DNA of 64,000 bases from Lasiosphaeris hirsuta (Eukaryota > Ascomycota > Sordariomycetes > Sordariales > Lasiosphaeriaceae): positions 186,001-250,000 of the forward strand of contig JAUKUA010000010.1 in assembly GCA_030549175.1 (NCBI GenBank), in the 5' to 3' direction. The notes beneath the pieces are model-generated. The model worked only from the letters and a program-made list of their open reading frames with translations, made no database searches and was not told where the DNA came from. Position numbers and translations under genes: made by a program. Within the stretch, counting starts at the first letter, position 1. The number at the start of each line of letters is the position of its first letter. Positions 6,213-63,809 of the stretch are shown one piece after another.

Positions 6213-6244
6213 GCCTATTATTGACTGCGATACCTGTGTGTGGT

Positions 6245-9568: not shown

Positions 9569-9732
9569 GCTTCGGACTGGTTGATTCTTGAAAGTGGTAT
9601 TGGAATCTGGGCACTGAGTAGGTCTCAGCTCGACGCTTCAATTGGTTGGGACGGCCTTGATATCCTTAATGACTAGCTACGCACTATCAAATGAATACAG
9701 CCGGGTTGAGAGTAAACTCCTAATCTAGATCC
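9569..9732. other. short intergenic spacer
   Basis: The SDR gene and the PKS relic converge here. No feature is seen. Confidence 0.5.
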
Positions 9733-11176: not shown

Positions 11177-11215
11177 TCTTCATCTCCGCCATATCTACTG
11201 AAGGCTCATGTGGTA

Positions 11216-12465: not shown

Positions 12466-12468
12466 ATA

Positions 12469-12520
12469 GGGGGGCACTACCCGATTGATACGGGGGCACT
12501 ATCGGGGGGCACTTGGTCAA
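12469..12520. repeat. three iterations of GGGGGCACT
   Basis: GGGGGCACT or GGGGGGCACT occurs three times in about 50 bases (near 12,469, 12,492 and 12,504). Such iterated short motifs occur at the ends of some DNA transposons or MITEs, but no matching inverted copy was found in the window. Confidence 0.5.
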
Positions 12521-21036: not shown

Positions 21037-22040
21037 TATGACACAGGTCAGCCCGCGGAGGTCTGGGGTGTAACAACCACAAGGTGAGATATCAAATGGA
21101 GAATCAGACTGTAGAGCTTTAACCTTTTCTTAACTCTCGACTCAACCGTTCAACGAACCACCCTGACAATTACTGTTAGTCTCGTTCAAAGCTTTCACAC
21201 GACGAACTCAGGGAGTTGATCTTCACAAGGCTGATAAGCACAAGGTCCGATTCAGAGCTTTAGAACAAAACGGTAAGGGAGTTAACGGTCGCAACGTAAA
21301 GTGGTAAAGAGCCAGGGAAAAGGAGGTTTAGGGAGATGGAATGATCTAACATAAGATAAGACACGATATTTCGCAATTGTAAGTCAAAAGAAACAAAAGG
21401 GTTCATAAGGTTATATTACCCCTTAGCTTCATTAAAGTTTAACTGATAATCTTTCTAGGTTTGTCTAAAGAAAACTAGGAAGCTTCATTCTCTCGAGGAT
21501 CCATCGTAGCATACATATCCTACTTATAGAAAGCTATATATAAGATATAAAGATACTAAAATATCTAAAGGACCCTCCTAGCTACTCGTCGATCCCGAAT
21601 CTCCCTTCTAGCCGCCCGTCTCTCGTACCTTATAAATCTATAACTATAAGCTAAGTAAAGCCAGCCTATTACATATCGGTTTACGGCTTGTATTAATACT
21701 TATCTATATAGCTTAAGTAACATAGTATCCATCGTTATAAGTGTTCCTTTACGTCTTTAGTACTTACGTTAGCTATAATACTATTAGGTTGATCCTATGT
21801 TAGCTATTATAACAACGGTTCCTTTTATAACTTATACACAGGGGTTATAACTACCTGTCACTACTAAAGCTAGACTCCGGAAAACGTCAGGTTCTAGGTC
21901 TTCTAAAGAAATACTAACGATAACGGGAAGGTTTATAATTCAAAAGACTAGTTATAATATCTAGGCTAACTATATAGGCCCTAATTATAATATTAAGGTT
22001 AAGTAACTTATCTATAATAAATCTAAAGTCTAATAATATT
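21037..22040 (-). mobile_element. LTR of chromovirus C, first part
   Basis: It starts TATGACACAGG (consensus TGTGACACAGG) and follows the 1.33-kb chromovirus LTR shared with A, B, F and the solo copy. It is interrupted after ...TAATATT at 22,040 by element D copy 1 and resumes at 25,520. Orientation is minus, as shown by the purine tract next to its other end (25,842-25,860). Confidence 0.9.
22034..22040 (+). other. target site TAATATT of element D copy 1
   Basis: Host LTR sequence TAATATT lies immediately before the element. The host resumes with AC at 25,520, so the uninterrupted host read TAATATTAC. Sister LTRs read TGACGTTGC at this place (44,126-44,134), so the site arose by C-to-T/G-to-A changes. 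Confidence 0.8.
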
Positions 22041-22328
22041 ATAGCCTTGGTGTTAATATCTTAATATCCTCTATCCTAGCAGTATGTCATAGGAGATATC
22101 CTCGGATATTTATAATATATGATCCGATGGATGGTATACTTATGTACCTACATCCGATGGTAAGAGATTACGATCGTCTAGACTCGGGAGATTAAACCTT
22201 CGTGGTTAGATAGTACCTACAAGGTACGGGGTCATACGTAATTGTTACGTAGCTACTATATACATTTTCCGTGAGGTATTTTTTTAATTAGTACATATAT
22301 AAGACGATTTGTCACATCGGTAAAATAT

Positions 22329-22395
22329 CAACCGAACCTCTCGTACTATGGTTAAGCGGTTAACCGCTCGGTCATTTGGCCTCTGTCTCCTTGTT
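22329..22395 (-). promoter_or_regulatory. tRNA-like segment with A and B box in D copy 1
   Basis: Minus-strand TGACCGAGCGGTT (A-box form, TGGCCGAGCGG in the other copy) is followed about 35 bases later by GGTTCGGTTGA (B-box form). Spacing and order fit an internal RNA polymerase III promoter or a Ser/Leu tRNA-derived segment. A complete tRNA fold was not established. Confidence 0.5.
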
Positions 22396-22423
22396 CTTTT
22401 TTTTCTCTTATATCAACTTCTCA

Positions 22424-22431
22424 TATATAAA
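22424..22431 (+). promoter_or_regulatory. TATA box of the virion-sense frame of D copy 1
   Basis: TATATAAA lies about 52 bases before the ATG at 22,483, on the same strand and on the virion-sense side of the split origin. The same box is present in copy 2 (reverse complement, near 61,853). Confidence 0.55.
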
Positions 22432-22482
22432 CCGTTCCCTTAGGAATTTTTTGTCAGTTCTCATACCTTATCCACGTTACCG

Positions 22483-22689
22483 ATGAGAAGGTTTTCGTCG
22501 TCCCTATCGTTACCTATATCGTTCTACATATCGTACCATACGATTTTTGTCATATCGACGACGTCTCTATCGGCGATATTAACACAATTATTTAACGTAT
22601 GTCTTTCTCTCCGCCGGTATATAATCTTTAGGTTCGATTTCGTAGACACTTATATCATATATTTCCTTTTAATCGGATATATAGGTTAA
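22483..22689 (+). CDS. virion-sense short frame of element D (unknown)
   Basis: A 68-codon frame whose counterpart is open in copy 2 (without the ATG). No family is recognised. An overlapping frame is strongly Arg/Tyr-rich (RSTYRTIRF, SYRRRLYRRY) up to a stop, as in basic N-terminal arms of small capsid proteins; that is only a resemblance. Which frame was used cannot be decided. Confidence 0.3.
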   Translation: MRRFSSSLSLPISFYISYHTIFVISTTSLSAILTQLFNVCLSLRRYIIFRFDFVDTYIIYFLLIGYIG

Positions 22690-24450
22690 GCTCGCTTTGA
22701 AATTACTATCGTTATCTTCTTAACTTATTATACGATTAGTAATTAGCTAATTAATTAAAGTTTATGTAATAGAAGTATTATAGAAATAAATATCTTCTTT
22801 AGTTACTTTTTTAATAAGTTAAAATTCTTTTTAGTTATATTAACTATCGTTCCGTTTCTTTACTCTCTTTATACCGCTAGTGATAAGTTAGAGGTTTTTA
22901 AATAGTCTTTAATAAAGATACTACTTTAATATATTTATTTATTAGTTTACTTAGAAGGTTAAAGTAATTATTAATACTATAAAAATATAAAATAGTATTT
23001 ATATAATAAGGACTATTTATACTTTTTTAGAGATATATATATTAGTATAAATCTCTATGTCCTTTTAATTCTTAGTTTAGAGATATTATGAAGTGACGAT
23101 ATTAACATTAGTATAATTAAGATATATAAAGTAAAATTATAGTTTGATATTATTTGTTCTTAAACTTATTATGTTAAGATTTTAACGTTTTAACTGTTTT
23201 TTATATTAATATAGAGTTTATTTATAATATGTGATTTTAATAGGATTATATTAAAAGGTAATATCTAGCCTTTTTTATTTACTTAAGTTTTATTACTTAA
23301 TAAAAAGTTATAAACTTTAGATTATATATATTTATTTTTTAATAAGAGGTTATTAACTTATATAGATATATATCTTCTTATATATTAGTTAGTTAAGAAG
23401 GAAACTAAGATATATATTTAGTTAGATAAAAGTTTTATTTATAAATCGTATAATATGTTAATATTAAAGTCTTAACCTTTTTTTATTTAACTTAGTTAAG
23501 AGAAAAAAGTTATAATAGATAGTAGTAATATAGATAATATTTAATAGGTAAATTATACTTTAGATATTATTTAATATATAAATATTATATTTTATATTTT
23601 ATTTAATATTTCTTATATATAAGTAAAGTAATTGTTAGTTATATTAAAGATAAAACCGAAGATAGAAGATAAAGATATCTCTATAAAATTATCTCGTTTT
23701 AATATATTATAGTTAAAGACGTTTATTATTATTATAATATAAGAGAAGAAAAATATTATAGAAACTGTTTTATTAGTTATTAAGATTAATAAGGTTAGAA
23801 CTATTATATATTAAAAAAAAGACGATTAGATAACTATAGAAATTTCTTATCTTTCTTAATTTGTAATAAAAACCCTTCTAATCTATCTTATATTAAGATA
23901 GGTATTCTTAGTAGTATTTATTTTATAAAAAGAAGGTTAATAATTTTAATGAAAATATAGTTCTTTTTTAATTAATCTATATCGATTTTATTATATAATT
24001 TTCTTAGATTTTTATTATAAACATAAATATATAGTAACTTCTATTTAGTAACTTTTATCTTCGGCTTATATTTATTTATATATATAAAAGATATCTAATA
24101 TCTTAAAATCTATTTATAGTATCGATATATGTCGTTGTTACTTAGTAAAATATTATTAAGAATGATATATTTTTTAATCTTATTAAATAATATATTATTT
24201 TAATATCTTTATATATAATAGTAATTACTTAAACTTCATACCTATGTCGTTTTTTATAACTTTATTAGACTAAATAAAACTAATAATTTTAATCTTATTA
24301 AAGAAATGTTAATTACTAAGTCCTAAATTTATTTTTAAATCTTAAGTACTTAAATAAAAAAAAGACGTTTCCTAAGTAACTTAGTAACATTTTATTTCGA
24401 AATTTAGGAAGAGGTTCCTTTAGGAAGAGAGAGAAAAATCTTATATTTTA
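22690..24450. other. AT-rich middle of D copy 1, unreadable
   Basis: Heavily mutated. No Walker A or other helicase motif of a full-length Rep could be recognised, and no second gene. Confidence 0.4.
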
Positions 24451-24452
24451 AT

Positions 24453-25352
24453 AATAATAGGTTTAAAAGGTCTAATAGAAGATATCTAAGTAACGTATCT
24501 TATTATATAAGAGTATTTATGTAATAAGTTATGGAGGTTTTTCTTTATTTATTCTATTATTTCTTTTGAGATTTCTTAGAGGCCGTCTAGTTATGGCGAG
24601 ACATATTATTCACGTTTGGCCTTAAACATGTCGTTTACATAGGCTTTGATATTAGTATATGAACACATAAACTGTTATGATACGTCTACTTTTAACGTTT
24701 TGAAGAGGTCGTCTTTTATTTCGGCTTTAGCGGTATCTTTCCATACGTTATTTTATATTATGACCCGGGCCGTTTTTGAGATGACGAGGTCGCCGCCGAT
24801 ATGTTCGGATCTGTCTTCTTTTTTATGGAGATATTTCTATATTACGATAAGGCTTCGAGTTTTACCGATCTGTAGGTAGTATTAGCTAATGTCGAAGTGG
24901 CGGACGTTCTTTATATTTTTCGTTTTAAGAAAGATTCTGATCACGTGAAAGTGCGGGGTACCGTCTTAGTAACTCTCACGTACTATAAAGTAATCCTCAA
25001 ATCCGAATGAGTTCATTACTATGTTAAATGTATCTGTGTCTAGTAGGTATCTGGGATATGTGAGAAAAACTGATTTGGTAACTAAACGAAAGTCGCGTTT
25101 TTTTCTGGTAGGTACTATAGTATTGTCTAGCTACGTCGTATACCATACCATTCCTTCTGGGCCTTTTAGTACGACTATTGGTTCGGATATATCGTGTTCT
25201 AACTGCTTAGATTGTATCACGAACAGATTAGATGGGTTTGGAGATGGGCTATCTCTTGGTTAAGCGTGTGTATTAAAAGATAAATCTGGTACGATGAATG
25301 AATTGAGAGAATCTTAGGAGCCTAGTATCTCTATAATAGAAGGGGAACTTAT
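24453..25352 (-). pseudogene. geminivirus-like Rep (HUH endonuclease) relic, D copy 1
   Basis: Complementary-sense gene of element D. Motif I reads FLTYP (geminivirus form FLTYPxC). Motif II is HFHV at 24,942-24,953, with both metal-binding histidines intact in this copy. Motif III is YLHK followed by KED near 24,815-24,828, supplying the catalytic Tyr and Lys of YxxK. GFEDYF and DGTP lie before motif II. The start codon is ATA instead of ATG (25,350-25,352) and several CAA/CAG codons are stops, so it is dead. Rep nicks TAATATT/AC and starts rolling-circle replication in geminiviruses and genomoviruses. The C-terminal SF3 helicase expected in those Reps was not recognised downstream. Confidence 0.85.
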
Positions 25353-25519
25353 GTCGAACAATTACGACAGTCTAACTGATGTGTTTGGCATTGTTAATGT
25401 AAGACATGGTAACGTATTTTATGTTTTTTTATGGACCGCGTTTTGTTTGTTGTGTACGTGTTGTTTGTGGGGGATATCTTCGGGACGTGGAGTTGGTACC
25501 AAGGCTACCTTTTAATATT

Positions 25520-25841
25520 ACTTAGTACAGGTAAGATTTGTTATATAGCTATTCTAGCTTATAAGTAGTTTTAGGCATTTTATCGTAACCTGTAGGTACT
25601 TAGGAGAATCTGTTAACCTATATACTGGCTAAATAGATTATTAGTTATACGTAGGAGTATATTCCGAGGTTGAGTTATATTATGACTATCTCTTTTATGA
25701 TAGTTCCCTTCTTTATGTTAATTTATAATAAATGTTTATAAGTCAATAGATATTTATATATATATAGTATATACCAGTAATATAACTCGGTTAAGGAGGT
25801 TAGTAATCATATTAACCTTAAGTAAGCCTACTAATATAACA
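25520..25841 (-). mobile_element. LTR of chromovirus C, second part
   Basis: Resumes as ACTTAGTACAGG and ends CTAATATAACA (consensus CCAGTGTGACA). With the first part the LTR is 1326 bp, the same length as the LTRs of A. Confidence 0.9.
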
Positions 25842-27213
25842 TTATCTCCCCTCCTAATAAGACTTACCTTAAGTTCTTAAGTGTTAAAGAAGTGTTTATA
25901 TAGTTTCTAAGTCTAATCTTTCTTTTTAAGATATTCCTTCTATTTAACATGGTATTTTACTATCTCTTTCTTAATATGGAAGTTTATAATTTCTTTTATT
26001 ATAAATTCCTTAGGGTAAATATCTTTTACTTACTTTAAGACTTAAATAAGGTTAGAAATTGGCTAAGAGCCGGTTTGAAAAGGCTTAATAAGAGATATAA
26101 AGAAGGTAGGATAAATCTTTTAATGTTTTAAGAGTTCGAGTTTTATGGTGGTAAGAGATATTACCTTAGAGATCTTAAATAGGCTAAGTAACTTCTTATC
26201 TAACTTCTTAGATAGTTTTTTAGTCTTAATATTCCTTATGTCGAGTATTACTAGTTACTTTTTTTTTAAAGGAAGGTATTTTCGTTTACTTCCGATTTAC
26301 ATACTTCTTTATTTATTCTTAAGATTTCTTAAGGGTTTCGTAAAGATTCTTATAGACTATCGTTATCTAATAAGTTATAATTTTACTATATAGGTTATGT
26401 ATAAACTCATCTAATAGGTCATTTACGGCTAGATAGTAACTGTAGTTGGTATAAAAAGGAGAGGTATTAGTAAAAGTCGATTTAATATTATTCTATGTAA
26501 ATTCGGCTATAAGTAATAAGATATCTTAGTTATTTATTTTATAATTAATAAAGACTTTAAGATAGGCATTGATATATTAATTAAGATATTTAGTTTAGTT
26601 ATCTATCTTAGGATAAAACAAGGTTAACATTCTTAGTATAACTCTTATGTATTTAAAAAAGTTACGTTATAATTTTATGTTAAACCGTAAGTTTTAATTT
26701 AAGATAATATTAGTAGGTATACTATAATGCTTTTAACATTTATAAGTAAAGATTAAGATTAAGTCTTTTATCTTCTTAGTATTATTTTTTAAAGGTATAA
26801 AATGTACTATTTTAATGAAGGTATTAACGATAACTTAAATAAAACTATATCTATTAGAGAGAGAAAGGTCTGTTATAAAGTTTATAGAAATAAGCCTCTA
26901 GGGGAAATATTTTAATTTAATAAGGTAGAATAGTTCGAAAAGAAAGTGACGTCTTAGCTTATTACTCTAAAACTTATAATAGAAATATATAAACTTAACG
27001 ACGTTGTTTTTAAAGTTTTATTAGTACATATGCCATCTAATAAGCTTAATAGTCTTATTTATACTTATATAACTTGCTACTTTGGTATTATGTTTTAAAT
27101 GGATGATTTAAATCTTAAGTTCCTTATTATTAAGGACTTAGATACGATTCTTTATAAATAAGATTCTATCTTTATTAGTTATATCTTTTTTAAGAGAAAC
27201 TAAAGTCTTTTAA
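25842..27213 (-). mobile_element. 3' internal part of chromovirus C (chromodomain, integrase end)
   Basis: Right next to the LTR lies the purine tract (read on minus, AGGAGGGGAGATA). Then comes a chromodomain-encoding stretch near 25,890-25,990 and integrase sequence that matches B at 37,200-38,500. It is cut at TTTAA (27,209-27,213) by element A and continues at 46,034. Confidence 0.85.
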
Positions 27214-28539
27214 TGTCACACTGGTAGGCTCACCTAGGTCAACAGAGTCACTGACCTCCTTAACCGAGCCACACCACCGGCACGAACTATACACATACAC
27301 AACCACCCATTGACTTACGAGCATCTACCATAGGTCGTCGTGGAGAAGGGAACCATCACAGAGGATGGCCACAACGTGGCTTAACCTCGGGACATGATCC
27401 CACGTGTAGCTAATAGCCTATTCAGCCGGTATATAGGTCAGCGAATTCTTCTAAGTGCCCACGGGTTACGACAGAACGCCTAGAACCACTCACAAGCCAA
27501 AGCTGCCGTACAACGGATCTTACCTATACTAAGGCAACGCCATCAAACTTCAGATTTGTCATGGACAAGCCACTCAACCTCAATATCGTGATCAAGGCCT
27601 ACATAGTTAGCTAAGATCCTATAGTTAGTCTTTCGAATTATAGACCTTCCCGTTATCGCTAGTATTCCTTTGGAAGACCTAGAACCTAACGTTCTCCGGA
27701 GTCTAGCTTCAGTAGTAACAGGTAGCTACGACCCCCGTGTATAAGTTATAAACGGAACCGTTACTATGACAGCCGACATAAGATCGACCTAACGGTACTA
27801 TAGCTAACGTAAGTACCAAGGACGTGAAGGAACACCTATAGCGATAGATACCATACCGTTAAAACTATATAGATAAGTACTAATACTGGCTACGAATCAA
27901 CGTATGATAGGCCGGCTTCACTTGGCTTGTAGCCACGGATTTGTAAGGTATAAGAGACGGGCGGCTAAAAAGGAGATTTGGGACCCACAGGCAGTTAGAA
28001 AGATCTTTCAGGTATTTTAGTATCTTTATATCTTATACATAGCCTTCCATAAGTAAGATAGGTATACTACGATAGATCCTCGAGAGAAAGAAGCTTCCTA
28101 GTTCTCTTTAGACAAACTTAAAAAGATTATTAACTAAACTTTAGTAAAGCTAAGAGATAATATAATCTTATGAACCTTTCTATTTCTCCTAACTTATAAC
28201 TACGAAGTATTATGTCTTATCTTCTATTAGATCATTCTATCTCCCTAAACCTCCTTTTTCCTAGCTCTTTACTACTTTATATTATGACAGTTAACTTTCT
28301 TACTGTTCTATTTTAGAGCTTTAAATCGGACTTTATACTTATTAACCTTATAAAGATTAACTACTTAAGTTTGTTATATGAAAGCTCTAAACTAGACTAA
28401 TAATAATTATCGGGATAGTTCGTTAAACGGATAAGTTAAAAGTTAAAAAAAGGTTAAAGTTCTATAGTTTAATTCTTTATTTAATATCTTATCTTATAGT
28501 TATTATGTCCCAGACCTCTATAGGCTAGCCTGTATCATA
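27214..28539 (+). mobile_element. 5' LTR of chromovirus A
   Basis: 1326 bp, from TGTCACACTGG to TGTATCATA. It is preceded by TTTAA; the same five bases follow the 3' LTR at 46,029-46,033. Element A spans 27,214-46,028, about 8.75 kb once its two insertions are subtracted. Confidence 0.93.
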
Positions 28540-30840: not shown

Positions 30841-32180
30841 TGTGACACAGGCCAGCCACCGAAGGTCTGGGGTATGACAACCACAAGGTGAGATATCAGG
30901 TGAAGAATCGAGCTGCAGAGCTATAACCTCAAACACAACTTCAACCGGACAGCTGACTATCCCGGCAATGGTATTAGTTCGATTCAAAGCTTTCAAGCCT
31001 TCCGACTCAGGGAGATGATCCTTACAAGGCCGCGTACGACTCGATGGTCAAGTATCTTAGCACAAGGTTGGATTCGGAGCTTTGGCACAGTGGTTGAGAG
31101 AGTTGATCGTCGCAGCCCAAAGTGGTAGTATACGCCGTGGGAAGGAGAGGTTCAAGAAGATGGAATGATACGACAGAAGATAACACACGATACTTCGCAG
31201 TTACAAGTCAGGGGAAACAAAAGGGTTCACAGGTTGTATTACCCCTCAGCTTTACTAAAGTTCAGTTAATAATCTTTCTAGGTTTGTCCAAAGAGAACTG
31301 GAGAGCTTCTTCCTCTCGAGGATCTATCGTAGGGTACCAACGCTACTTATGGAAGGCTATGTATAAGATATAAGAATACCGAGATACCTAAAGGATCCTC
31401 CTAGCCGCCTGTTAGTCCCGAATCTCCTTTTTAACCGCCCGTCTCTCGCGCCTTACAAATCAATGGCTACAAGCCAGGTAAGGTCGGCTCATCACACGTT
31501 AACCCTTGGTTAGTATTAGTACTTACTCCTATAGCTTAAGTAGTCATAGTAACTATCGCCGTGGAGGTTCCTTCATAGCCTTAGTACTTACGTTGGCTAT
31601 AAGTTACTAAGTCCTAAGGTTAGCACTTATTATAGTAACGGTTCCTTTCGTAACTTACACGTAGGAGTCGTGACCACTTGTCACTACTGAAGCTAGACTC
31701 CGGAGAACGTTAGGTTTTAGGTCTTCCAAAGGAATGTTAACGATAGCAGAAAGGTCCTTAATTTAAAAGACTAACTGTAGGATCCTAGCTGACTATGTAG
31801 GCCCTGATCGCGATGCTAAGGTTAAGTGGCTCGTCCATGACAAATCTGAAGTCTAGTGACGTTACCTAGCGCGGGTAAGATCCAGTGTATAGCTGCTCTG
31901 GCTTGTGAATGGTTCGAGGTATCCCGTCGCGACCCGTGGTCGTGCCTGAGGATCCGTTGACCTGTGTGCGGGCTAAATGAGCTACTGACCAAACGATGGG
32001 GTGTGTCCCGAGGTTAAGCCATGTTGTGGCAACCTTTCTAGTGCTGGTCCCACATTGACAGGTTCCCTGAACTTGTTGTGGGTCTATGATGTTGTGTAGG
32101 TGTATGGTGTGTGCCGGTGGTGTGGCTCGGTCAAGGAGGTCAGTGACCCTGTTGACCTAGGTGAGCCTACCAGTGTGACA
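30841..32180 (-). mobile_element. solo LTR inserted in chromovirus A
   Basis: 1340 bp, TGTGACACAGG to CCAGTGTGACA as read on plus. It is flanked by ATCTC (30,836-30,840) and ATCTC (32,181-32,185). With its internal region gone by LTR recombination it is a solo LTR. It is the least mutated chromovirus LTR in the window, with long stretches free of CpA-to-TpA changes, so it is the best template for the family LTR. Confidence 0.93.
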
Positions 32181-51400: not shown

Positions 51401-51634
51401 TGCTTCGGTCAAAAGGACCGCTTGCGTAAGCGTTACTTTGGTGGTCCTTCACATGAACACTGATATGATATATTGTATGGTGGTGTAAATAATTTGTAAA
51501 GGATGGCCCGTTGGTAATCAGTCTGGAGGGTGTGCTGCCATTATATAGCAGCGTATCCCCTGTGCTTAATTAAGCGTAGGGACTGCGTATAACGGACTAA
51601 CCTATCTAGGCTATCTACATTTTTCCACGTAACA
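51401..51634 (-). mobile_element. LTR of Ty3/gypsy element E (left copy)
   Basis: 234 bp, TGCTTCGGTC to CCACGTAACA on plus (TGTTACGTGG to ...AGCA on minus). It matches 63,576-63,809. CTATA flanks the outer ends (51,396-51,400 and 63,810-63,814), so E spans 51,401-63,809, about 8.93 kb without D copy 2. The pol genes read on minus, making this the 3' LTR. Confidence 0.92.
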
Positions 51635-51780
51635 TGTGCCCGGGGCAAAGAATAAAGAAAAGGGCATCCTCGCCATCGTCCTCCGCTCTCTTGAACTATA
51701 AGAAAAGTACTAATTATCCCCAGCTCTTTCGTATACTGTTGCCATGCTTAGATCATCCCATTCTTTATACTCATACCCCT
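51635..51780. other. leader next to the left LTR of E
   Basis: GC-richer, little-mutated sequence. No typical polypurine tract is visible on the minus strand next to the LTR, which is unusual for a 3' end. Confidence 0.4.
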
Positions 51781-53391
51781 CTAGTCTACAGTGTCGAAGA
51801 GTGTCTTTTGCTTAGTCGTCTTGGAAGGCGACTTCTTGGCGGTAGGCTTTTTGCAACCAATACCTTTGGTAGGGGTCTCTTGAGTAAGAGAAAAGGTTGC
51901 CGACTTGCTACGTGTGCCAACCTTAGGAGCGTTAATGCCGAATAGGTTAGCAAGGGTACTACGCTTATTCTACTTCTTAGGTAGAGTGTCCATAGCTATG
52001 ATTTTACTCTGGGTATCCTTAGTAAGGTACTTACGTAAGATGCCAAGGGTTATAATAAGTATAGGGGTACTTGAACGAGTAGTCGAGGTGGCCGTAGGTC
52101 ACGTAGTTGATAGTTACTTGATGGCCTTGTTAAGCTTTGTTAAGTCCTTTTGAAGATCTTAGACCTGGTTATTAAGTACTTTAGTCTTCGGGCTGACCTT
52201 GTTTATACGGCCCGTTAGAGTGTTAACTTACTCTTTGGTAATATACTTATTAAGGTTATCTATCGTCATTCTCTTCATAGCTTAGAAAGCTTTATAGACC
52301 TTATCATAGCTTAGAAGCTTCTTAATCTTATTCTTAAGGATATTAATCTTATCCTTAAGGTATTTTTAAAGATCGTATATGTCAGTAAGTATGTTAGTTA
52401 TAGAAGATACATAGACTACTTTGGCTTTCTTAAGCTTTGTAGTCTTATCGGTAAGTTAGTACTTAAGGTGTTGGAACTATGTATGTTAGTATTAGTTTGT
52501 ACTAGTAATAAGAACGTTCGCTTAGTCGGCTTAGGTATGAACTTATGTAAAGTCGAGGTAATTAAGGTAGATAAGGACTAAAGATAACTTTTCGTTTAAA
52601 GTGGCTATAAGGTAATAGTAAATAGTCACAAGGATAGATACCTTTAAAGGTAAGTAGTTATTATTAACATCTTACTTATTATATGTCGTCTTAGCCTTGT
52701 TTAATAACTTCTTTAACTAGCATATATATAGGTTATTAGCTAAATCCTAGTTCTTAATAGCCGACTTTAATCCTTTAGTAAAGATATCTTTAATCTCTTT
52801 ATTTACTGTAAAGAGAAGCTTTAGATCGTCGATCATAAAGGTAGCGTATTTATAAACTTCCTATCTACTTATTGACTTATTAAAATATTTAAACTCGAAG
52901 TAGGCTCTATAGTTTGGTAAGACCTTAGACTCTTTATTACTGGTAATAAGTCACTTAGTTCTTTACTTAGCCTGTTTCTAAAGTGTCTTTATACCTTAGT
53001 AGTAATATTTCTTAAAAATACGATATTTGATAAGTAAGCCGGTAGAAAAGTTAGGTAAGTTACCTAAGAGATCTAAGGTTATCTCTTTATCTTCGTTATT
53101 AGGTTTATCTTTTATAGTAAGATTAAAGTTATCGTCTTTTACGTACTCACTTTTGTTATTATCATAGTTAGAATCATAGTTAAATAAATTATTAAGCTTA
53201 GACTTATCGTAGTCATTCTTACTATGTTTAGTAATAGTAGTAATATTCTCTTAGCCTTGTCTAACGTATCTTAAGGTTTCTTCGGCTAAAATTTAAAGGT
53301 ATGTAAGATCTAGACTCTTAGCTATTAGGCTGTCCTTAGGTACGTCTAGATTATTTAGCTTAGCTCGAGCTATCTTAAATTAACGTTTCAT
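51781..53391 (-). pseudogene. extra frame of element E, unknown product
   Basis: About 537 codons on the minus strand from ATG at 53,391 to TAG at 51,781, interrupted by perhaps 15-20 TAA/TAG codons of RIP type but with the frame otherwise held. The start reads MKR-stop-FKIARAKLNNLDVPKDS. The middle has KYRIFKKYYY and FEFKYFNKS, and a Leu/Lys-rich coiled-coil-like part (LKKAKVV, KYLKDKINILKNKIKKLL). The C-terminal end is Lys/Thr/Ser-rich. It lies between the end of pol and the 3' LTR, where most gypsy elements have no gene. No family is recognised. Confidence 0.55.
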
Positions 53392-53760
53392 TTTACGAAT
53401 GTACTCTTATAAATAGTTAAATTTAACTATCTTAAAGTACAAATGAACGTGATAGTAAGATATAAAAAAAGTATAAAGGTGTAACTTGATAGCGGCGACG
53501 AGGGTAGTAATAATTATAAGAAAGAAAAACATAAAAATTTTATAAGAGAGGTTTTTTAGTTAGTAACCTAGCTTAGTAAGCTAGGGCCTTATAATAAGGA
53601 AAATTGACAAAGAAAAAATAATACTATGATAAGGCTTCTATCTAATTATCTAGTCTTTTTTAACTCGTAGTAAGAAAGTACTTGTGTAGCTAAGTAAGGT
53701 TAATAAAGGAAAGTAAAAGAAAAAAAAGATTTAATATTATAGCTAAAATACTTCCTTACC
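53392..53760. other. spacer between extra frame and pol of E
   Basis: AT-rich; nothing recognised. Confidence 0.4.
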
Positions 53761-56700
53761 TTATTAAAAAAGCTATTCGTCCTCGAAAACATCTCTTATA
53801 TAACGGTTTAATACTATAGAAGCTTAATTACTATTTCTGTAGTAGGGATAATATCGACTTTAACGTACTTAATGGTCTTAATACCCTTTTTCTTACGTTC
53901 CTTATCCTAGTCGATAAGGTTCCTTACTTTATAACTTATGACGATATTTCTTACGTTTAGTAATAAGTTTACTCTTAATTCCTATATATTATCCTTAACT
54001 TTGTAGTTCTTTTAATAGACGAGATACTTAACACTTAGGTTCTTTTTCTTCTAGCTTACTTTATTACTAACGATATAGTCAAGCTTCTATTCTTTTTATT
54101 TATTAACCTTAATAACTAATAGTACCTATTACTTTTGGCTAAAAATATTCTTACCTTATTAAGGATAGTATAGTTACATAACTAAGACGATTAAGTATAC
54201 TTCCTATAACATTAGAAAGTTAAGCTTATAAGTTAGATTACTTATCTTTACCTTACTAATAATCTTAAACGGACTTACCTTTTAAGATAACTATTTTCTT
54301 TTTAGCTTACTAAGTAGATAGTAACCTTTATAGAGGTATAAATAAATAGTATCTTTAATCTTAAAGGTTTCGGATATATACTTATTATCATAACAGAGTT
54401 TTATTATTATATTAACGATATTAAGAAGCTAAATTACTTCCTTTTAGTAATATCTCCTAAGAACCTTTGTTACCTTAGTACCTACTCTTATATCTTTTTT
54501 CACGGTTAAAATATCTACTAGAGACCTTAGTCGGAATCTAAAGACTAGTTTATTAAATAATCTACTAATCGTAATAGTTAATATATTATTAATGTTAAAC
54601 TAGAGCGATAGTAGTATATCAACTTACGAAACCTCTCTGTCTGTTATAAAGGTATAGAAACGAATAGTAATCTTAACTATCTAGTTCGTTCTCTTTGACT
54701 AGTTATCGGTTTATAGATAGTAAGCGGTAAAAAAAAGTAGTTTAATATCGTAAATATCGAAAATCTCTTTCTATAATACCGAGGTAAACTTTAAGTCTTT
54801 GTTACTAATAATTATCGTTAGTAGTTCCTAATCGTATATAAATAATAATCTCGTTAATACCTTTACCTAATCTTTAACTATATAAGTATAATATTTCGTT
54901 AATAAGAGTGTTTTTTTAAAGAACTTATATGTAACTATATAGAGTATATTAAGTATGTTATAGCCTTTGAGATATTATATCGTTCTAACTAATAAAACTA
55001 TAGGTAAGTCGATAATAAAATATATCACGATAGTATAGAATGGTTATAAGGTTATATAAATAGATATTATTTCCTCGTTCGTAAGTTATCTATCGGTTTA
55101 GTTCTAATAATAGGCCTTATAGAACTAGATAAAACGTTTCACTTTCTATACCTTGTTAGTAAAGTATATATTCTAGAGGTTGTCTATTATCTTATAGAAA
55201 CCGAAATGATACGATTTATCATAAACTATCTTAAGTACTGTCTTAATATATACTCTTAAGATATAGAGGTAACGATTTCTATCGTGATTAACGTAATATA
55301 ATAACTTGTCCTTGATTTCAAATAATTCCATTAGAAGTCGTAGATATCTCTTAGATACTTTAATACGTTTTACCCATTATAATACGATAGGTTTTTTTAT
55401 CTTAGTGTTAATATCGGCTATTAACTTATTATATTTTATATCGTTCTTATAACTCTTATATAGGGCGGTTTTGAACGAGTCATTAATGACGGACTCGGTA
55501 CTTACCTAAATAACTATAACAGATATCTCGTCTCCTACATTCTATACTATAGCTTAGATATTATCGAACTTGTTAAATTTATTTACCTTAAGCTTCTTAA
55601 AGTCCTATTTAAACGTTAGAAGTTATGAAAGTATATTAGGAACGATGTTAAGATTACCTAAGATATAAAAAATATCGATCTCAAATTAAGAAAGCTAGTT
55701 TATTATATTCGTAAGCTTATGGTTAGCTTTATTTAAGTCTATTGTTACTAAAGACGTATACTTAACGATACCTTTAGTAAAAGTATAATCTATTAAGATA
55801 TTTAGATAATGTTAGTTTAATTAAACTATCTTCTTAAACTTTCTAACTACCTATATAACTATTACAGCCTCTATCTCCATAGATCCGTATTTTTACTCGG
55901 TCATAGTAATTACTCTTAATAAGAACATGATCAGTAGAACCCTCTCCGCTATGAGATCGTATCTTAAGATTACTTTCTTATCTTAGTTATCCTTAAGTTA
56001 AAAAACGAAGAGGCTAAAAGCTTCTTTATAAGTATCGACTTTAAAGAATAATAGCTTCGTTTTAACGTGATAGTAAGTCGTAAATTATGTATATAAGTAT
56101 TTCTATAGTAGGTAAAAAGATTTCTATTTATTTTTTAAAGGTTAAAAACGTATTTTCGATTTGTAAACCTTTCTTACATTTTTTATACTTCCGTTTATAA
56201 TCTTTCCTTCCTTATGGCTTAATATTAATAACATCGTCTTTTTCTTTTATAATAGTCCGGTTTTAACGTTATATTAGGTAATTTTATATCGTAGTTATCT
56301 AGCTATCTTTAGATAGATCTTAAGTATATCTAGCGTGTCTAGGAACTTTATCTTCTAAAAAGTTACAATTCGATCATCCGTTTTCGCGACTTTTTCCCCG
56401 TTAACAATATATCCTAGAAGTTAGATTATTAAATAGGCTACGAATAACTTATTAGTATTAATATATATCCTTATGTCTTTTAAGAACTTAAGTACCTTAC
56501 TTATTTTCTATAGTATTAAAGACGACGATGTTATCGATATATGCCCGTACGAAATCTTAATTGTTACAGAATAGACGGTCTATAAAACGTTAGGTAAAAG
56601 TAAGTAAGTTCTTAAATCCTATAAGTATTATGTTTAATTACTTAAGCTTTCTTTTTATAATAATAACCATATGATTATAATATTCGTTATAGACTAGTAA

Positions 56701-58764
56701 CTAATAGAAGAAACTAAAGGTATTTATTATAGAAAAAACTTTTTTTTTTTATATTATGAGGATTATATCGTCTTAGTCTACGAGTAGATAGACATCTAGT
56801 ATCGTAACCTTATTTAGGATATATAAGTTAACGATGAGACGGCTCTTTTCTACTCCGTTAATCATTTTCTATATTACGAAGATAAGATACGTAATAGGGG
56901 TTAGTTTGTTAAGAAAGGTTAGCTTTCTAGCCACATATATAGTATCGAGTCTTTACGTAGTAAAAATACGATCTTTCGCTTCCTAGGGATATAACTTTAT
57001 TAGTTTAATTCAGTTTTATTATCTCTTAATAAGGTTAATCTTTATTTTACTCTCATCGGACATAGTTATAATATCTCTATCATAAAATATATCATGTTTA
57101 TTTAGGAGGTCCTTAATACTTTCTATAAAGGTTTCGTTTATCTTATAAATGTTTATTCTAGCTTTATTTTTAATAATAGAAAAATCGGCTAGCTTCTCGA
57201 CTTTATATAATAATATATATTATCCTATCCTTAAAGAGAGTAACTATAAGATATCGACGATTTTTATCTCGTTACTTACTTAATTACTTAGAATATAAAC
57301 AAAAATATCCTTTATTTTATCCTTGAGTTAGTAGATTTTATTAAAGATAGCTAAATAACATTCTTTTATATTAACGTTATTAAACTTTATATAATATCTT
57401 ATAAAAGAGGCTTATGTAATTTTTACTCTTATGTTTACGTTATAACTTATTAAATCAAACATAAACACTTACTTTACTTTAAGCTATTTTTAAACTTTTT
57501 TAATCTTCTAACCTCTCTTAATAATTATTAGCTCGGATGTTTAGTTATAAAAGTATATTACATAAGATGTTAAGTAGTCGATGTTACTATCTTAGATACC
57601 TTCCTATGTTAACATAAGATAAAAAGTCTATAGCCTGTCATAAATATACGTCTCCTTAAGTAATAACTTTGGTAAATCGTATATCTTAGTTTTGATAAAA
57701 CCTTTTATTTTAGATATAAAAATAATACTTTAAAAAGTAGTGACCTTACATATAATCTCCTAACGAGGTTTAGTAACTAAGTCTATTCTTATCCTTATGT
57801 TTTTAACAGATCAGAAAGTAATATTATTTCTTAAAAAGTCGATAGTTATACCATTGTCATCTATAAAGGTAATACCAATTAATATATACGGCCCTAGCTC
57901 GTCAATAACATTGGCCTTTATATAAAAGTAAGTATTAATACTAGTTTACTATATTATATTAGAAATATAAAAATCGAACTTAGCTTACTTATCGATACGA
58001 GTTCTTAAGTTAACTCCCTTAACAAAACGAAGTTCTTATAGTACCTAGCGTAAATGGCGTGTCCATTTTTAAATCTACTTTTTATCGACAAGGTTAGTTA
58101 AGTTACTAGTATTAAAGTAGACGTGTATAGGTTTATCGTTTAAGTTTATTTTGATACTAATTCGAAGATAAGACTTCTTCGGATATTAAGAGCCTACGGA
58201 ATAAAGTAGTAGGTTTACTTTAATAACCTATCCTTCCTTAAAAATAACATAAGTTTCTTTATCACTTAAGTTATTATTACTTTAGTTCTTTATCGAGTGA
58301 CTTTCTTAGGTTATGATAAATCTTTTATCTTTCTCTTCCGTATCTTCTATAAATATCTATTTAAAATAAACCTTCCTTATGTCGTTCTTACTTATTCTTA
58401 CATTTCTATTATCTTCTAACTTCTTAGAGTTCTTTAGCTCTTCTTTTAAATAGGTAGGTTACCTCAGAGTCACGGGCTTTGTAAGAGACCTTTACTCCCT
58501 AAAGATCACGGGCTTTATAAGAGATATAAGAGATATAAGCTCATTTAGGAACTTAAGTTTCTAACGTATAATTAAACCTTTCTTTAGCTTTTATAATTAT
58601 TTAATATACTCCGTCTAGATATGTTACTATAACTCATTTCCATAGTCGAATATTTCTATATAGCTTAAATATTTATACTTTTTTTTATTAGATACCTTAT
58701 ATCGGGTAAGATTACTTAGTACTATAGAGAAACGAAGAAAAGCTAAATAGAAAAGAGATATCGT
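53761..58764 (-). pseudogene. pol of Ty3/gypsy element E
   Basis: Minus-strand polyprotein broken by RIP. The reverse transcriptase box reads VRAYIDNIVV at 56,521-56,550 (YIDD with Asp-to-Asn). The integrase zinc-binding domain is YYVNHDRNR followed by SYHFGFYK near 55,195-55,310 (family form H..H..GHxG). A catalytic-core segment (VVDRFTNLITF) lies near 55,020-55,060. Protease lies upstream but is unreadable. Order protease-RT-integrase makes it Ty3/gypsy, a different family from the chromoviruses. Element D copy 2 is inserted at 58,765. Confidence 0.8.
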
Positions 58765-58777
58765 AATATTAAAAGGT

Positions 58778-58787
58778 AGCCTTGGTG
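58778..58787. other. one arm of the split origin stem, D copy 2
   Basis: AGCCTTGGTG on plus. It pairs with CACCAAGGCT at 62,231-62,240. Confidence 0.85.
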
Positions 58788-58930
58788 CCAACTCCACGTC
58801 CCGAAGATGTCTCCCACAAACAACGCGTGCACAACAAATAAGACGCGGTCCATAAAAAACATAAAACACGTTACCGTGTCTCACATTGACAATGCCGAAC
58901 GTATCAGTTAGACTGTCGTAATTGTTCGAC

Positions 58931-59830
58931 ATGAGTTTCCCTTCTGTCGTAGAGATACCAGGCTCCTAAGATTCTCTCAATTCATTTATCGTACTAGATT
59001 TATCTTTTAATGTATATACTCAACCAAGAGATAGCCTATCTCCAAACCCGTCTGGTCTGTTCGTGACACAATCTGAGTAGCTAGAACGCGATATACCCGA
59101 ACCAATAGTCGTACCAGAAGGCCCGGAAGGAATGGTATGGTACGCGACATAGCCAGACAACGCTATAGTACCCACCAGAAAAAAACGCGACTTCTACTTA
59201 GCTGCCAAATCAGTTTTTCTTACTTATCCTAGATGCCTATTAGACATAGACATATTTAACACGGCAATAAACTTATTTGGATTCGAGGATTACTTTGTAG
59301 TACGTGAGAGTCATTAAGACGGTACTCCGTACTTTCACGTGATCGGGATCTTTCCCAAGACGAAAAATATAAAGAACGCCTATTACTTCGACATTAGCCA
59401 ATACTACCTATAGATCGGTAAAACTCGGAGCTTTATCACAGCGTGGAAATATTTTCATAAAAAAGAAGATAGATCCGAACACATCGGCGGCGACCTCGTT
59501 ATCCCGAAAACGGCCCGGGTCACAATGTAAGATAACGTATAGAAAGATACCGCCAAAGCCGAAACAAAAGATAATCTCTTTAAAATGTTAAAAGTAGACG
59601 TACTATAACAGTTCATATATTTATATATTAACATTAAAGCCTACATAAACGATATGTTTAAGGCCGAACGTAAATAATACGTCTCGTCATAACTAGACAG
59701 CCTTTGGGAAATCTTAGAAGAAATAACAAAATAGATAAAGAAAAACCTCTATAACCTACTATATAAGTACTCTTATATAATAAGATACGTTACTTAGGTA
59801 TTTTCTATTGGATGTTCTAAGTTTATTATT
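58931..59830 (+). pseudogene. geminivirus-like Rep (HUH endonuclease) relic, D copy 2
   Basis: The start ATG is kept (58,931), 166 bases from the element end. Motif I reads FLTYPRC near 59,215-59,235, the geminivirus form. Motif II reads YFHV at 59,330-59,341, its first His lost by CAC-to-TAC. GIFPKTK follows, then YFDI in the stretch where geminivirus Reps carry their GRS element. Motif III reads KYFHKKED at 59,447-59,470, with the catalytic Tyr and Lys (YxxK) present. Stops TAA/TAG occur at several former Gln or Trp codons, so it cannot be expressed. After about 59,600 the similarity to known Reps fades and no Walker A is visible. Homologues are Reps of geminiviruses, genomoviruses and endogenous Rep copies in fungi; placement among them needs a tree. 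Confidence 0.88.
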
Positions 59831-61560
59831 ATTAGAATATAAGATTTTTCTCTTCTCTCCCGGGGAGGCTTTCTTCCGAATTTCGAAATAAAGTATTATT
59901 AAGCCGCTTAGAAAATGTCTCCTCTTTATTCAGATACTTAAGATCTAAAAATAAATTTAAAACTTAACGACTAACTTTTCTTTAATAAGACCGAAATTAT
60001 TAGTCCTATTTAGCTTAATAAGACTATAAAAAATGACATAGGTATGAAGTTTAAGTAACTATAACTATATATAAGGATATTAAAACGGTATATTACTCGA
60101 CGAGACTAAAAAATATATTATTCTTAACGACATTTTATTAAATAACAATAATATATATTAGTATTATAAATAGATTCTAAGGTATTAGATATCTTTTATA
60201 TATATAAATAAATATAAGTTAAAGACGAAAGTTACTAAATAAAAGTTACTATATATTTATATTTATAATAAAGACTTAAGAGAATTATATAATAAAATCG
60301 ATATAAATTAGTTAAAAAGAAATTATATTTTCATCGAAATTATCAACTTTCTCTTTATAAAATAAGTACTATTAGAAACATTTACCTTAATATAAAATAA
60401 ACTAGAAAGATTTTTATTATAGATTAAAAAAAATAAAGAATTTTTATAACTATTTAATCGTCTTCTTTTTAATATATAGTAGTTTTAACCTTATTAATCT
60501 TAATAGCTAATAAAACAATTCCTATAATATCTTTCTTTTCCTATATTATAATAATAATAAATACCTCCGATTATAACATACCGAGACGAGACGATTTTAT
60601 AGAGACATCTTCGTTCTTTACCTTTAGTTTTATCTTTAGTATAACTAATAGCTACTCTACTTATATATAAGAAATATTAAATAAAATATAAAACATAACA
60701 TTTATATATTAAATAATATTTAAAGTATAGTCTACCTATTAAATATTATCTATATTATTACTACTTATTATAACTTTTTTCTTCTAACTAAGTTAAATAA
60801 AAAAAGATCGAAACTTTAATATTAATATATTATATAGTTTATAAATAAAACTCTTATCTAACTAAACACATGTCTTAACTTCCTTCTAAACTAGTTAATA
60901 TATAAAGAGACATATATTTATATAAGTTAACAACCCCTTATTAAAAAACAAATATATATAATCTAAAGTCTATAGCTTTTTATTAGGTGATAAGACCTAA
61001 GTAAATAAAAAAGGCTAGATATTATTCTTTAATATAATCTTATTAAAATTATATATCATAAACGAACTTTATATTAATATAAAAGATAGCTAAAATATCA
61101 AAATCTTAACATAATAAGTCTAAGAATAAATAATATCAAACTATAATTTTATTCTACGTGTCTTAATTATACTTATGTTAATATCGTTACTTTATAATAT
61201 CTCCGAACTAAGAACTAAGAGGACATAGAGATCCGTACCAACATATATATCCTTAAAAAAGTATAAATAATCCTTATCATACAAATACCGTTTTACGTTT
61301 TTTATAGTACCAGTAACTACTTTGATCTTTTAAATAAACTAATAACTAGGTATATTAAAGCGGTACCTCTGTTAAAAACTACTTAAGAACCCCTAACCTA
61401 TCACTAATAATATAAGGAGGGTAGAGAAACGGAACAACGGTTAGTACGACCAGAAAGAATCCTACACCGTCGAAGAGATAGCCAGAGAAGATATTTATTT
61501 CTAAGACACTTCTACTATATAAGCTCTAATTAATTAACTAATTACTAATCATATAGTAGG
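59831..61560. other. AT-rich middle of D copy 2, unreadable
   Basis: Same length and layout as in copy 1. No motif is recognised on either strand. Confidence 0.4.
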
Positions 61561-61909
61561 TCGGGAAGATAACAGTAACAGTTTCGAAGCGAGCTTAACC
61601 TATACGCCCGACCAAAAGAAAATATATAACACGAGCGTCTACGAAATCTAACCTAAAGATCATACACTGGCGGAGAGAAAGATATACGTTAAACAATCGT
61701 GTCAATATCGCCGATAGGGACGTCGTCGATACGACGAAAACCGTACGGTATGATATGTAGAACGATACGGGTGATGATAGAGACGACGAAAACCTCCTTG
61801 TCGGTAACGTAGATAAGGCATAAGAACTGACAAAAAATTCCTAAGGGAACGGTTTATATATGAAGAGTTAATATAGGAGGAAAAAAAGAATAAGGAGACG
61901 GAGGTTAAA

Positions 61910-61962
61910 TGGCCGAGCGGTTAACCGCTTGACCATAGCGTGAGAGATTCGGTTGATATTTT
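61910..61962 (+). promoter_or_regulatory. tRNA-like A and B boxes in D copy 2
   Basis: TGGCCGAGCGG at 61,910-61,920 is a perfect A-box form of Ser/Leu tRNAs. GATTCGGTTGA near 61,946-61,956 is a B-box-like match, GGTTCGGTTGA in copy 1. A second B-box-like GGTTCAATCCCC is at 62,086-62,097. This points to a Pol III promoter or a tRNA-derived insert beside the origin. Confidence 0.5.
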
Positions 61963-62230
61963 ACCGATATAACAAATCGCCCCATGTATGTACCAATTGA
62001 AAAAATGCCTCACGGAGAACGTACATAGTAGCTACGTAACAATTACGCACGACCCCGCACCCTGTAGGCACTGGCTAACCACGAAGGTTCAATCCCCGAG
62101 TCTAGACGATCGTAATCTCCTACCGTCAGATGTAAGCACATAAGTACGCCATCCATCGGATCACACACCGTAAACATCCGAGGACATCTCCTGTGACACA
62201 CTACCAGGACAGAGGATATCAAGACATCAA

Positions 62231-62249
62231 CACCAAGGCTGTAATATTA
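62231..62249 (-). other. nick-site half of the split origin and host TAATATT
   Basis: On minus: host TAATATT (62,249-62,243), then element AC (62,242-62,241), then stem arm AGCCTTGGTG. The junction itself reads TAATATTAC. Confidence 0.85.
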
Positions 62250-62342
62250 TTTTTAGCCTTAAACTTACTTATAAGTTAACTAAACTATCATTTTATATTT
62301 ATTAACTTTAATCTAAACTATTAAATAATAATTATAACCTAA
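62243..62342 (-). repeat. about 100 bp shared with 15,622-15,724
   Basis: Both copies run from a TAATATT site through GAGG/AAGG-C-TAAA, TTAACTAAACTATC and a final ATAATTATAAC, then diverge. At 15,622 the site is uninterrupted (TAATATTACC on minus); here element D occupies it. Confidence 0.75.
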
Positions 62343-63575
62343 TTAGAGACACTTAGTCTTATATACTCCTTATTCTTAATTAATAATTAAAGCTCGTATT
62401 ATTAGAGGGCTAATCCTTTAAATAATAAAAATAGTTCTTTATAAAAAGTACTATATCTATCTAAATCTAAGGCCGTTTCCTTAATATATATAGTTTAAAG
62501 ATAAATATTACGGTAATGAAGCTACTTACTGTCATAGAACAGTTAAACTTTACTATCTTTCTTTGGTAGTACGTCTAGCTAGAGAAGACCGACATGATAG
62601 ATCTGTTAGTTAGAACCTCTTATCGTTAATAGAATATATATTTAAGCCGCGGGACTAGTCGCCGACATATTGGTCCTTATAAGAGTAATCGTAAGATATG
62701 TCTATATAACTTATATTATCTACGTAAGCTACTTCTTAATTGTTAATTGTCTCAGAGGTAAAAATGAAGATAGACCAGAAGATTACTCGTCAGTACGATT
62801 CTTAAGTAGATCCGGATCTTACCCCGGCGTATAGTCTTCTGTTATTTTACTTAGTATTACGGGTAAGAATCCTTCGTCTTATAATGTGGTATCAGACTTC
62901 CTTAGTATAGTATCTCGTCTAGCTGTTAATGTCACGTTACTTAGTAGTAAGATGGTTAGCGTACCCTTAAGTATTAGGTCTGTGGGCGGTAACGTTACCA
63001 GGGTCTATTAGGTATCCCTTGGTTCTGGCGTTTCCGCCGTTCTTAAGTACTCTGGTACTAGATAGAGACCTTTCTATATTCCTTGAAGGTAGTTATCGAC
63101 CAGAGTTTTGAAGTGCTCTTTCAGAATGTAGTTGTTAACGTTCTAGGTATTTAGATAACTGTTTTGAATAGGGCTTCTTAAGTAGGTAAATGTTCCGTTG
63201 GTAAGAAAAATTAGGCTTGTTAACGCCACGAGTACTTACTTATACTCCGGCTTTACGTTAGTTTACTACTTGACTCTTAGATTCTTAGAGTTGTAGTCGA
63301 ATACCTGTTAGGCTTCGTGGAGCTTAATAATGTATATCCGCTTGTCTTGTTGTTTTAACAGTAGGTCGCCGACTTAGTTAAGAGCCTTCGTGCAGTTAAC
63401 GTGTGTGTTGTCGTTGTTGTCTTAACAGTAGGCCGCCGACTTAGTTAAGAGCCTTCGTACTGTTGACGTTGACGTTGTTGTTGTCTTTATTACAACGTGG
63501 TATAAGCTAGTGTTGGTCCTAGAGGTATTAAATTGACTGATGAGGTCTATCCGATTCGATGGTAGGGGTATCACT
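62343..63575 (-). mobile_element. 5' internal part of element E (leader and probable gag start)
   Basis: Less mutated than pol. It contains a repeated unit, GTCGCCGACTTAGTTAAGAG and its variant, near 63,365 and 63,432, and GTTGTTGTC-like repeats at 63,400-63,485. No gag motif is recognised with certainty. Confidence 0.5.
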
Positions 63576-63809
63576 TGCTACGGTTAAAAGGACCGCTTAC
63601 GTAAGCGTTACTTTGGTAGTCCTTCACATGAACACTGACATGACATATTATATAGTAGTGTAAATAGTTTGTAAAGGATGGCCCGTTGGCAATCAGTCTG
63701 GAGGGCGCGCTGCCATTATATAGCAACGCACCCCCTGTGCTTAATTGAGCGTAGGGACTACGTACAACGGACTAACCTATCTAGGCTATCTATATTTTTC
63801 CACGTAACA
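63576..63809 (-). mobile_element. LTR of Ty3/gypsy element E (right copy)
   Basis: 234 bp, TGCTACGGTT to CCACGTAACA on plus, followed by CTATA (63,810-63,814). It is the 5' LTR if pol is on minus. Confidence 0.92.

Follow-up and report, generated by a model that had tools for sequence, protein, structure and literature searches.

Probable insertions of a circular CRESS-DNA replicon at genomic copies of its origin sequence in Lasiosphaeris hirsuta

A 64,000-bp stretch of the Lasiosphaeris hirsuta genome (the window; C2:186001-250000 in a 44.4-Mb genome of 14 contigs, the source of all copies described here) contains two copies, A and B, of a 3.48-kb element carrying a decayed gene for a geminivirus-like replication protein (Rep). 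Every end of this element coincides with the nick point (slash) of TAATATT/AC, the origin nonanucleotide of geminivirus type, and at several insertions the target sequence was supplied by the host. The copies are probably insertions, now dead, of a small circular replicon of the circular Rep-encoding single-stranded (CRESS) DNA type (gemini/genomovirus-type), kin of a fungal DNA virus, inserted by its own Rep.

Element ends and the origin nonanucleotide

Patterns of 22 bases for the left end and 22 bases for the right end (the latter with ≤3 mismatches) were run genome-wide. Twelve left and eight right ends were found, and control patterns read backwards gave none. The ends paired into seven two-ended insertions, one of them a head-to-tail dimer, and four left-end-only remnants. 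A first-pass annotation of the window had reported two copies with defined ends; both are real and exact to the base, as the 12 left and 8 right ends agree, but more copies exist. In the list below, RIP (repeat-induced point mutation) is a fungal defence that mutates repeats, and LTR is a long terminal repeat.

22041..25519, + (virion sense; Rep on −): element copy A, 3479 bp; ends from comparison of 12 left and 8 right ends
58765..62242, − (virion sense; Rep on +): element copy B, 3478 bp; ends by the same genome-wide comparison
22034..22042, +: left junction of A, TAATATTAT, a RIP-altered TAATATTAC; TAATATT is host, AT (earlier AC) is element bases 1-2
25513..25521, +: right junction of A, TAATATTAC; the element has TAATATT at its 3′ end and the host supplies AC
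62241..62249, −: left junction of B, TAATATTAC, made up of host site 1 and element bases 1-2
58763..58771, −: right junction of B, TAATATTAC, where the 3′ end of the element meets the host AC of site 2
22042..22051, +: left arm of the origin hairpin of A, TAGCCTTGGT, read from the sequence
25498..25508, +: right arm of the origin hairpin of A, ACCAAGGCTAC
C2:250309-253710: two-ended copy C
C7:4904906-4918058: two-ended copy C7, with a 9.7-kb retrotransposon inside
C13:148364-151843: two-ended copy C13a
C13:456109-468075: two-ended copy C13b, with an 8.5-kb retrotransposon inside
C2:86481-98362 and 98363-103221: head-to-tail dimer, itself interrupted by later insertions
C12:918440: left-end-only copy C12, ~1.35 kb inside that begins as an LTR; traced to element position ~2163
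C14:583548: left-end-only copy C14, reaching element position 1947
C13:448326: left-end-only copy C13c, reaching element position 1104
C2:297780: left-end-only copy, reaching element position 548

All units begin with AC (AT after RIP), and the eight right ends read TTTTAATATT or, once, TTTCAATATT. Host TAATATT precedes 10 of the 11 left ends facing host DNA, and AC follows all seven host-facing right ends. The twelfth left end and the eighth right end abut in the dimer, sharing one nonanucleotide, the last base of which is RIP-altered (AT for AC). When folded, this dimer junction forms a stem of 11 bp, and its 13-nt loop, containing TAATATTA, carries the nonanucleotide (z −2.4; 5 of 200 shuffles were equally good). 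No such hairpin was obtained on folding the single ends of A plus flanks. Within 62 bases of the left end GATGTCCT occurs three times, twice in tandem, and we take these repeats to resemble geminivirus iterons. A geminivirus Rep nicks TAATATT/AC, remains attached to the 5′ A and then joins the circle shut. The accessible part of PMC5014472 describes the hairpin of the geminivirus origin and the sequence of its loop. The element had been called origin-centred in the first pass; an origin is indeed present, but its role was understated, the origin being the element boundary and its nick sequence the host target.

Genome searches with three parts of the element (660 bases on the left, 920 on the right and 1601 in the centre) gave DNA matches only at the known loci and no right-end-only or internal-only copy; no short derivative was found among the 12 left and 8 right ends. 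In C14, the dimer and C13c the match to A breaks at element position ~546 and resumes after a gap, as if there were two left-half subtypes.

Host sites with and without the element

The window is gene-bearing from 1 to 12500 (G+C fraction 0.525), and the remainder is AT-rich (0.31) and packed with nested repeats, including two LTR retrotransposon families. A lies in family 1 and B in family 2.

21041..22040, +: host of A, first part of a family 1 LTR, split by the element
25520..25842, +: host of A, remaining part of this LTR
51401..58764, +: host of B, family 2 retrotransposon up to the element
62243..63809, +: host of B, remainder of this retrotransposon without the 720 bp between two TAATATT/AC sites

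For A and C13c, 14 insertion-free LTRs align across the cut and range from TGACGTT/GCC to TAATATT/AC (one exact). Copy C occupies the same LTR site on the opposite strand, which is possible because TAATATTA is palindromic; one family 1 LTR site was used by three copies (A, C13c and C) on both strands. Empty paralogues also exist for C14, e.g. AATAATATT/ACTTTTTAAT (among at most nine listed), and for the host site of C12, in retrotransposon family 2.

In the family 2 copy nested in C7, two sites lie on one strand 720 bp apart, reading TAATATT/ACC and TTAATATT/ACG. Both sites and the 720-bp stretch are spanned by 33 of 40 family 2 places, and both sites could be read in 20. The left junction of B is at site 1 and its right junction at site 2, and the 720 bp between them are missing; the left junction of C12 is at site 1, as in B. 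The 20 paralogues came from a query containing the 720-bp stretch and so could not have lacked it; the control was a search for the deletion junction. No element-free junction like that of B was found genome-wide at ≤2 mismatches, and the joined halves of B fitted the pattern without mismatch. The 711-720 bp in the C7-nested retrotransposon were considered as another small element occupying the same position; this was rejected, since they are native to the retrotransposon family.

Six LTRs of ~1.33 kb represent family 1 and lie in 25 kb of window sequence, some nested in one another and some inverted (21041-25842, split; 27213-28539; 30841-32180; 35741-37063; 43129-44457; 44709-46028). Family 2 (window 51401-63807), with 234-bp LTRs, has 40 matching places in the genome and carries its two TAATATTAC-like sites on one strand. 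A host TAATATTAC also occurs at window position 13415, with one short match elsewhere and nothing further. The gene-bearing edge of the window encodes a HET-domain protein (2801-4882), an ankyrin-repeat protein (5580-6212), an alpha/beta hydrolase (7283-8086) and a short-chain dehydrogenase (8702-9568). Taken with the RIP signature, this edge would fit a filamentous ascomycete.

The Rep gene and the left half

The Rep parts were delimited with P0121, a 434-residue protein of Diaporthe pseudophoenicicola DNA virus 1.

24528..25370, −: Rep of A, N-terminal extension, HUH catalytic and central domains, degraded (tblastn, P0121 residues 3-277, E 5e-46)
25053..25067, −: Rep motif I of A, FLTYP
24942..24953, −: Rep motif II of A, HFHV
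24822..24833, −: Rep motif III of A, YLHK (YxxK)
24296..24527, −: putative intron of A, unmatched between two Rep parts (P0121 residues 277 and 281 map ~230 bp apart)
23924..24295, −: Rep of A, C-terminal (ATPase/helicase) part, degraded (tblastn, P0121 281-406, E 4e-9; domain label inferred)
58913..59755, +: Rep of B, N-terminal two thirds, degraded (tblastn, P0121 3-277, E 7e-51)
59988..60359, +: Rep of B, C-terminal part, degraded (tblastn, P0121 281-406, E 2e-13)
22041..23900, no strand given: left half of A, without a recognised protein family as far as the C7 copy shows

A geminivirus-like Rep with FLTYP, HFHV and YxxK had been proposed for the element. The motifs are present in A, and B reads YFHV for the second and YFHK for the third. 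The profile PF00799 (Gemini_AL1) exceeded its curated cut-off at four places in the genome, all of them element copies (A among them, with three stops inside), and at none in 14 control genomes, indicating that the Rep similarity is not due to chance. A 125-aa open piece of C7, containing FLTYP, PHFHV and YLHK, matched PF00799 at 40.5 bits (E 3e-10) and six solved Rep chains at E ~2e-6. Of the open pieces taken alone, that of A (54 aa) gave no PF00799 match and that of B (54 aa) stayed below the cut-off (E 0.07).

On the C7 copy, P0121 aligned in two stretches, residues 3-277 and 281-413 (best E 5e-71; reversed P0121 as control, best E 1.8). The gap of ~230 bp between them is common to A, B, C7 and C13a and represents a putative intron. 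The second stretch, which reaches residue 406 in A, B and C13a, is assigned as the helicase part by homology to P0121 only; a Pfam search of P0121 itself named no helicase.

Three homology searches with the C7 piece, at limits of 1e-3, 10 and 1e-3, gave 1, 197 and 12 matches; the best 120 of the 197 were listed, and the third search scored 8000 candidates. Closest among the matches listed were P0016 (58% identity), P0121 (57%, over 87% of the 125-aa piece), P0122 of Trichoglossum hirsutum (54%), P0018 (49%) and P0021 (47%). A 32-row tree placed the element with P0121 and P0016 (support 98/91) on a long branch, as would be expected for a decayed copy. P0122 is the annotated T. hirsutum protein GP486_008292 and falls in the Rep branch of the element. 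Between copies, transversion sites in the Rep catalytic piece numbered 1/1/7 by codon position, suggesting from these nine sites that this piece was under constraint.

As in the first pass, no capsid or integrase gene was recognised. In the left 1640 bp of C7, none of the 23 open pieces of ≥30 aa matched a Pfam family above cut-off, and left-half pieces compared with NCBIfam (two) and PHROGs (three) gave no family match above cut-off. A genome search with PF00844, which lacked a positive control, gave no match, and RIP decay could hide a capsid gene; it is possible that such a gene was lost to RIP, that the capsid is of unknown type or that there was none. No transposase was matched in 27 of 47 open pieces of the C7 copy. 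The ambisense layout claimed at first, with a virion-sense frame, was not borne out: this frame is open over 207 codons in C7, and was rejected as a gene because it has no Pfam, NCBIfam or PHROGs match and no codon-position signal (transversion sites 11/8/5). Pieces on the complementary strand of the left half looked protein-like by eye and were likewise rejected (no Pfam match; the two tested gave 4/4/2 and 3/2/0, no codon signal), as was a tRNA-like stretch seen by eye near the left end, where ARAGORN and Rfam found nothing. Viral contig scans, and tblastn in a phage collection, detected no relative.

Decay, mode of insertion and rival explanations

At the Rep ends of eight copies the RIP indices were 1.04-1.38 (TA/AT) and 0.40-0.79 ((CA+TG)/(AC+GT)); the corresponding values for window 1-12000 were 0.75 and 1.24. 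Over its first 350 bp the C7 copy had no RIP signature (0.59 and 1.04). Summed over copy pairs, 5880 transitions were counted against 222 transversions in the right part, and 4200 against 473 in the left part. Since transitions dominate between copies, transversions were used for dating. In the first 540 bp of 11 of the 12 left ends (the inner dimer unit left out), nine copies differ mutually by 0-9 transversions; C13c and the copy at C2:297780 differ from these nine by 23-26 (~4.5%) and from each other by 15. This pattern points to a recent burst of nine copies plus two older ones. The target rule holds in the old copy C13c and is imperfect in that at C2:297780.

Over 867 bp, 42 transversions separate the host LTR of A from that of C13c, the nearest LTRs among those compared differing by 12 from the former and by 16 from the latter; in a larger alignment the two differ by 46-50 against 12-14 from the same five LTRs. 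The element left ends of A and C13c differ by 25 transversions in 540 bp. Thus, the two LTRs belong to different sublineages and the same site was used at least twice, besides the reverse insertion of C.

TAATATT lies left of the cut in all five insertion-bearing copies (A, C13c, C, B and C12) against 11 of 34 empty paralogues, as counted by eye (Fisher p 0.008); an alternative count gave 3/3 against 1/14 (p 0.006). A third count (5/5 against 9/34, p 0.003) was not used because the full 9-mer was unreadable in C13c, C12 and B. Together with the reuse of the LTR site, the excess of the exact 7-mer is weakly suggestive of RIP having turned the site into a nonanucleotide before insertion, a reading limited by differing RIP levels between copies and possible post-insertion RIP.

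We consider insertion by Rep the likely explanation. Rep would nick TAATATT/AC both in the origin loop and at a place where host DNA is single-stranded, and would then join host ...TAATATT to element AC... and element ...TAATATT to host AC.... A genomic TAATATT/AC taken as acceptor in place of the replicon's own would give exactly the product observed. In this way a whole circle opened at its origin would enter a genomic nonanucleotide with no host bases lost, a head-to-tail concatemer could enter by the same route to give the dimer, and where two nonanucleotides lie on one strand, as for copy B, the stretch between them could be lost. A single nick-and-join reaction would account for unit length, exact ends, the absence of lost bases, the dimer and the replacement at B. 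The sequences themselves show the Rep homology, the common ends at the nick point, host-supplied targets at several sites, the reuse of one site, the dimer, the 720 bp lost at B and RIP-type decay; nicking and joining by Rep and a circular donor are inferred from them, and RIP may have made some of the landing sites beforehand.

Several points weigh against this explanation. The evidence for insertion comes from one genome, and neither an active copy nor an insertion event was observed; all 14 P0121 matches in the genome carry stops, and transversion sites in the helicase (3/1/3) and N-terminal parts (0/1/1) give no constraint signal. That the nick position is carried over from geminiviruses to this Rep is our assumption. 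One left flank, at C2:297780, reads TAATAAT. The only window paralogue of the C13a site, TAACACT/ACCGGAG, aligns across a gap, and the sequences compared include no empty paralogue that extends to the cut for four insertions (C7, C13b, the dimer and C2:297780). The exact 7-mer is missing in 23 of 34 empty paralogues at two sites, so its exactness could partly be due to post-insertion RIP. The four remnants have breakpoints away from the origin, for which later damage and partial insertion are both possible. Finally, nine-base microhomology repair would give the same junctions.

The last two points are also what favours a rival, in which Rep only opened the origin and the released circles or linear forms were captured by host end joining or by single-strand annealing via the 9-base microhomology; moreover, the accessible part of PMC3187698 names non-homologous recombination as a route of single-stranded DNA virus integration. 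Capture should, however, have used other parts of the circle and left fillers. Both junctions are at the origin in all seven two-ended insertions, copies with only a right end or an internal part were not found, a single site was hit by three copies in both orientations, and the junctions of B are on separate host nonanucleotides 720 bp apart. Capture without joining by Rep is rather improbable.

It is very unlikely that the element is a DNA transposon with terminal inverted repeats on which a DDE transposase acted in trans. The hairpin arms would then be the inverted repeats, TAATATTAC a 9-bp target site duplication and Rep cargo, in keeping with the 11-bp inverted repeat at the ends, the 9-mer on both flanks and the transposase open reading frames reported, in the part of PMC3198968 available, for a gemini-like transposon of truffle. 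The supposed duplication is, however, one fixed sequence (TAATATT at 10 of 11 left ends, AC at seven of seven right ends) rather than one varying with the target, and it equals the geminivirus origin loop (PMC5014472, as far as its accessible text goes); nor was a transposase matched in the 27 of 47 open pieces of C7 that were compared, or a short derivative sharing the ends found among the 12 left and 8 right ends. Few insertion events multiplied by retrotransposon copying or segmental duplication are the least credible alternative: three copies do share one LTR site and two (B and C12) one family 2 site, where transversions number 1-2 to any paralogue shown and one or two events are both possible, but A and C13c lie in LTRs of separate sublineages, C is oppositely oriented and the other flanks differ mutually.

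Relation to known elements and significance

The element has the features of a CRESS-DNA replicon: an HUH Rep with motifs I-III, an origin hairpin with the nonanucleotide in its loop and, with the restriction given above, a C-terminal ATPase/helicase. The closest named Rep among the matches listed, on the same tree branch, is that of Diaporthe pseudophoenicicola DNA virus 1, which is recorded as unclassified. Its contig is 3143 bases against 3.48 kb for the element, which is thus not of odd size for this branch. This virus is presumably linked to Diaporthe sojae circular DNA virus 1. The first pass had judged the element large for gemini- and genomoviruses; it does exceed Genomoviridae genomes (~1.8-2.4 kb in the accessible part of PMC11708013), but not strikingly the Diaporthe contig. 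The same part of PMC11708013 counts the D. sojae virus among fungal CRESS viruses, so the genomovirus size bound may not hold for the branch.

Helitrons also use an HUH endonuclease and rolling-circle logic, without loss of target bases, and insert between A and T. Their HUH protein family and ends are different; the element has neither Helitron end sequences nor A/T insertion, its ends being AC...TT and its target TAATATT/AC. In adeno-associated virus (AAV), a viral HUH Rep steers integration to a site resembling its own, at one preferred locus and with imprecise junctions. AAV belongs to another virus group, and the junctions of the element are exact and its target recurs in repeats. The AAV integration site on chromosome 19 is treated in the accessible part of PMC3187698.

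The geminivirus-like transposon of Tuber melanosporum is likewise a multi-copy geminivirus-type Rep in a fungal genome; it has 37-bp terminal inverted repeats and two transposase open reading frames, and no duplication of its target is obvious (Liu et al. 2011, PMC3198968, from the part available). The present element differs in its 11-bp arms, the lack of a recognised transposase and the host nonanucleotide at both ends. EGV1 of yam resembles it in having tandem Rep units with a TAATATTAC hairpin, for which its authors propose Rep-mediated duplication and a turn towards transposition, and is unlike it in being related to plant begomoviruses and forming long arrays (all from the accessible text of PMC5014472, which gives neither a target rule nor empty sites). 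Insertion at the nonanucleotide with empty sites was not found described in the open-access literature, a search covering no preprints and few subscription papers.

A CRESS-DNA replicon and a rolling-circle transposon are both possible. We propose only tentatively, as somewhat less probable than not, a distinct class of eukaryotic rolling-circle transposon in which a CRESS-type Rep would nick and join at chromosomal nonanucleotides, RIP (TAACGTTAC to TAATATTAC) would make the landing sites and activity would have come in more than one wave.

Genomes of circular single-stranded DNA viruses are commonly viewed as entering chromosomes by non-homologous recombination. The insertions described here, with their defined ends and empty sites, point instead to the cut-and-join reaction of Rep itself, and the simple rule TAATATT/AC can be checked in any genome. 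If true, it would provide a direct link between CRESS viruses and rolling-circle transposons, and it raises the possibility that RIP, a defence of the fungus, creates targets for its parasite.

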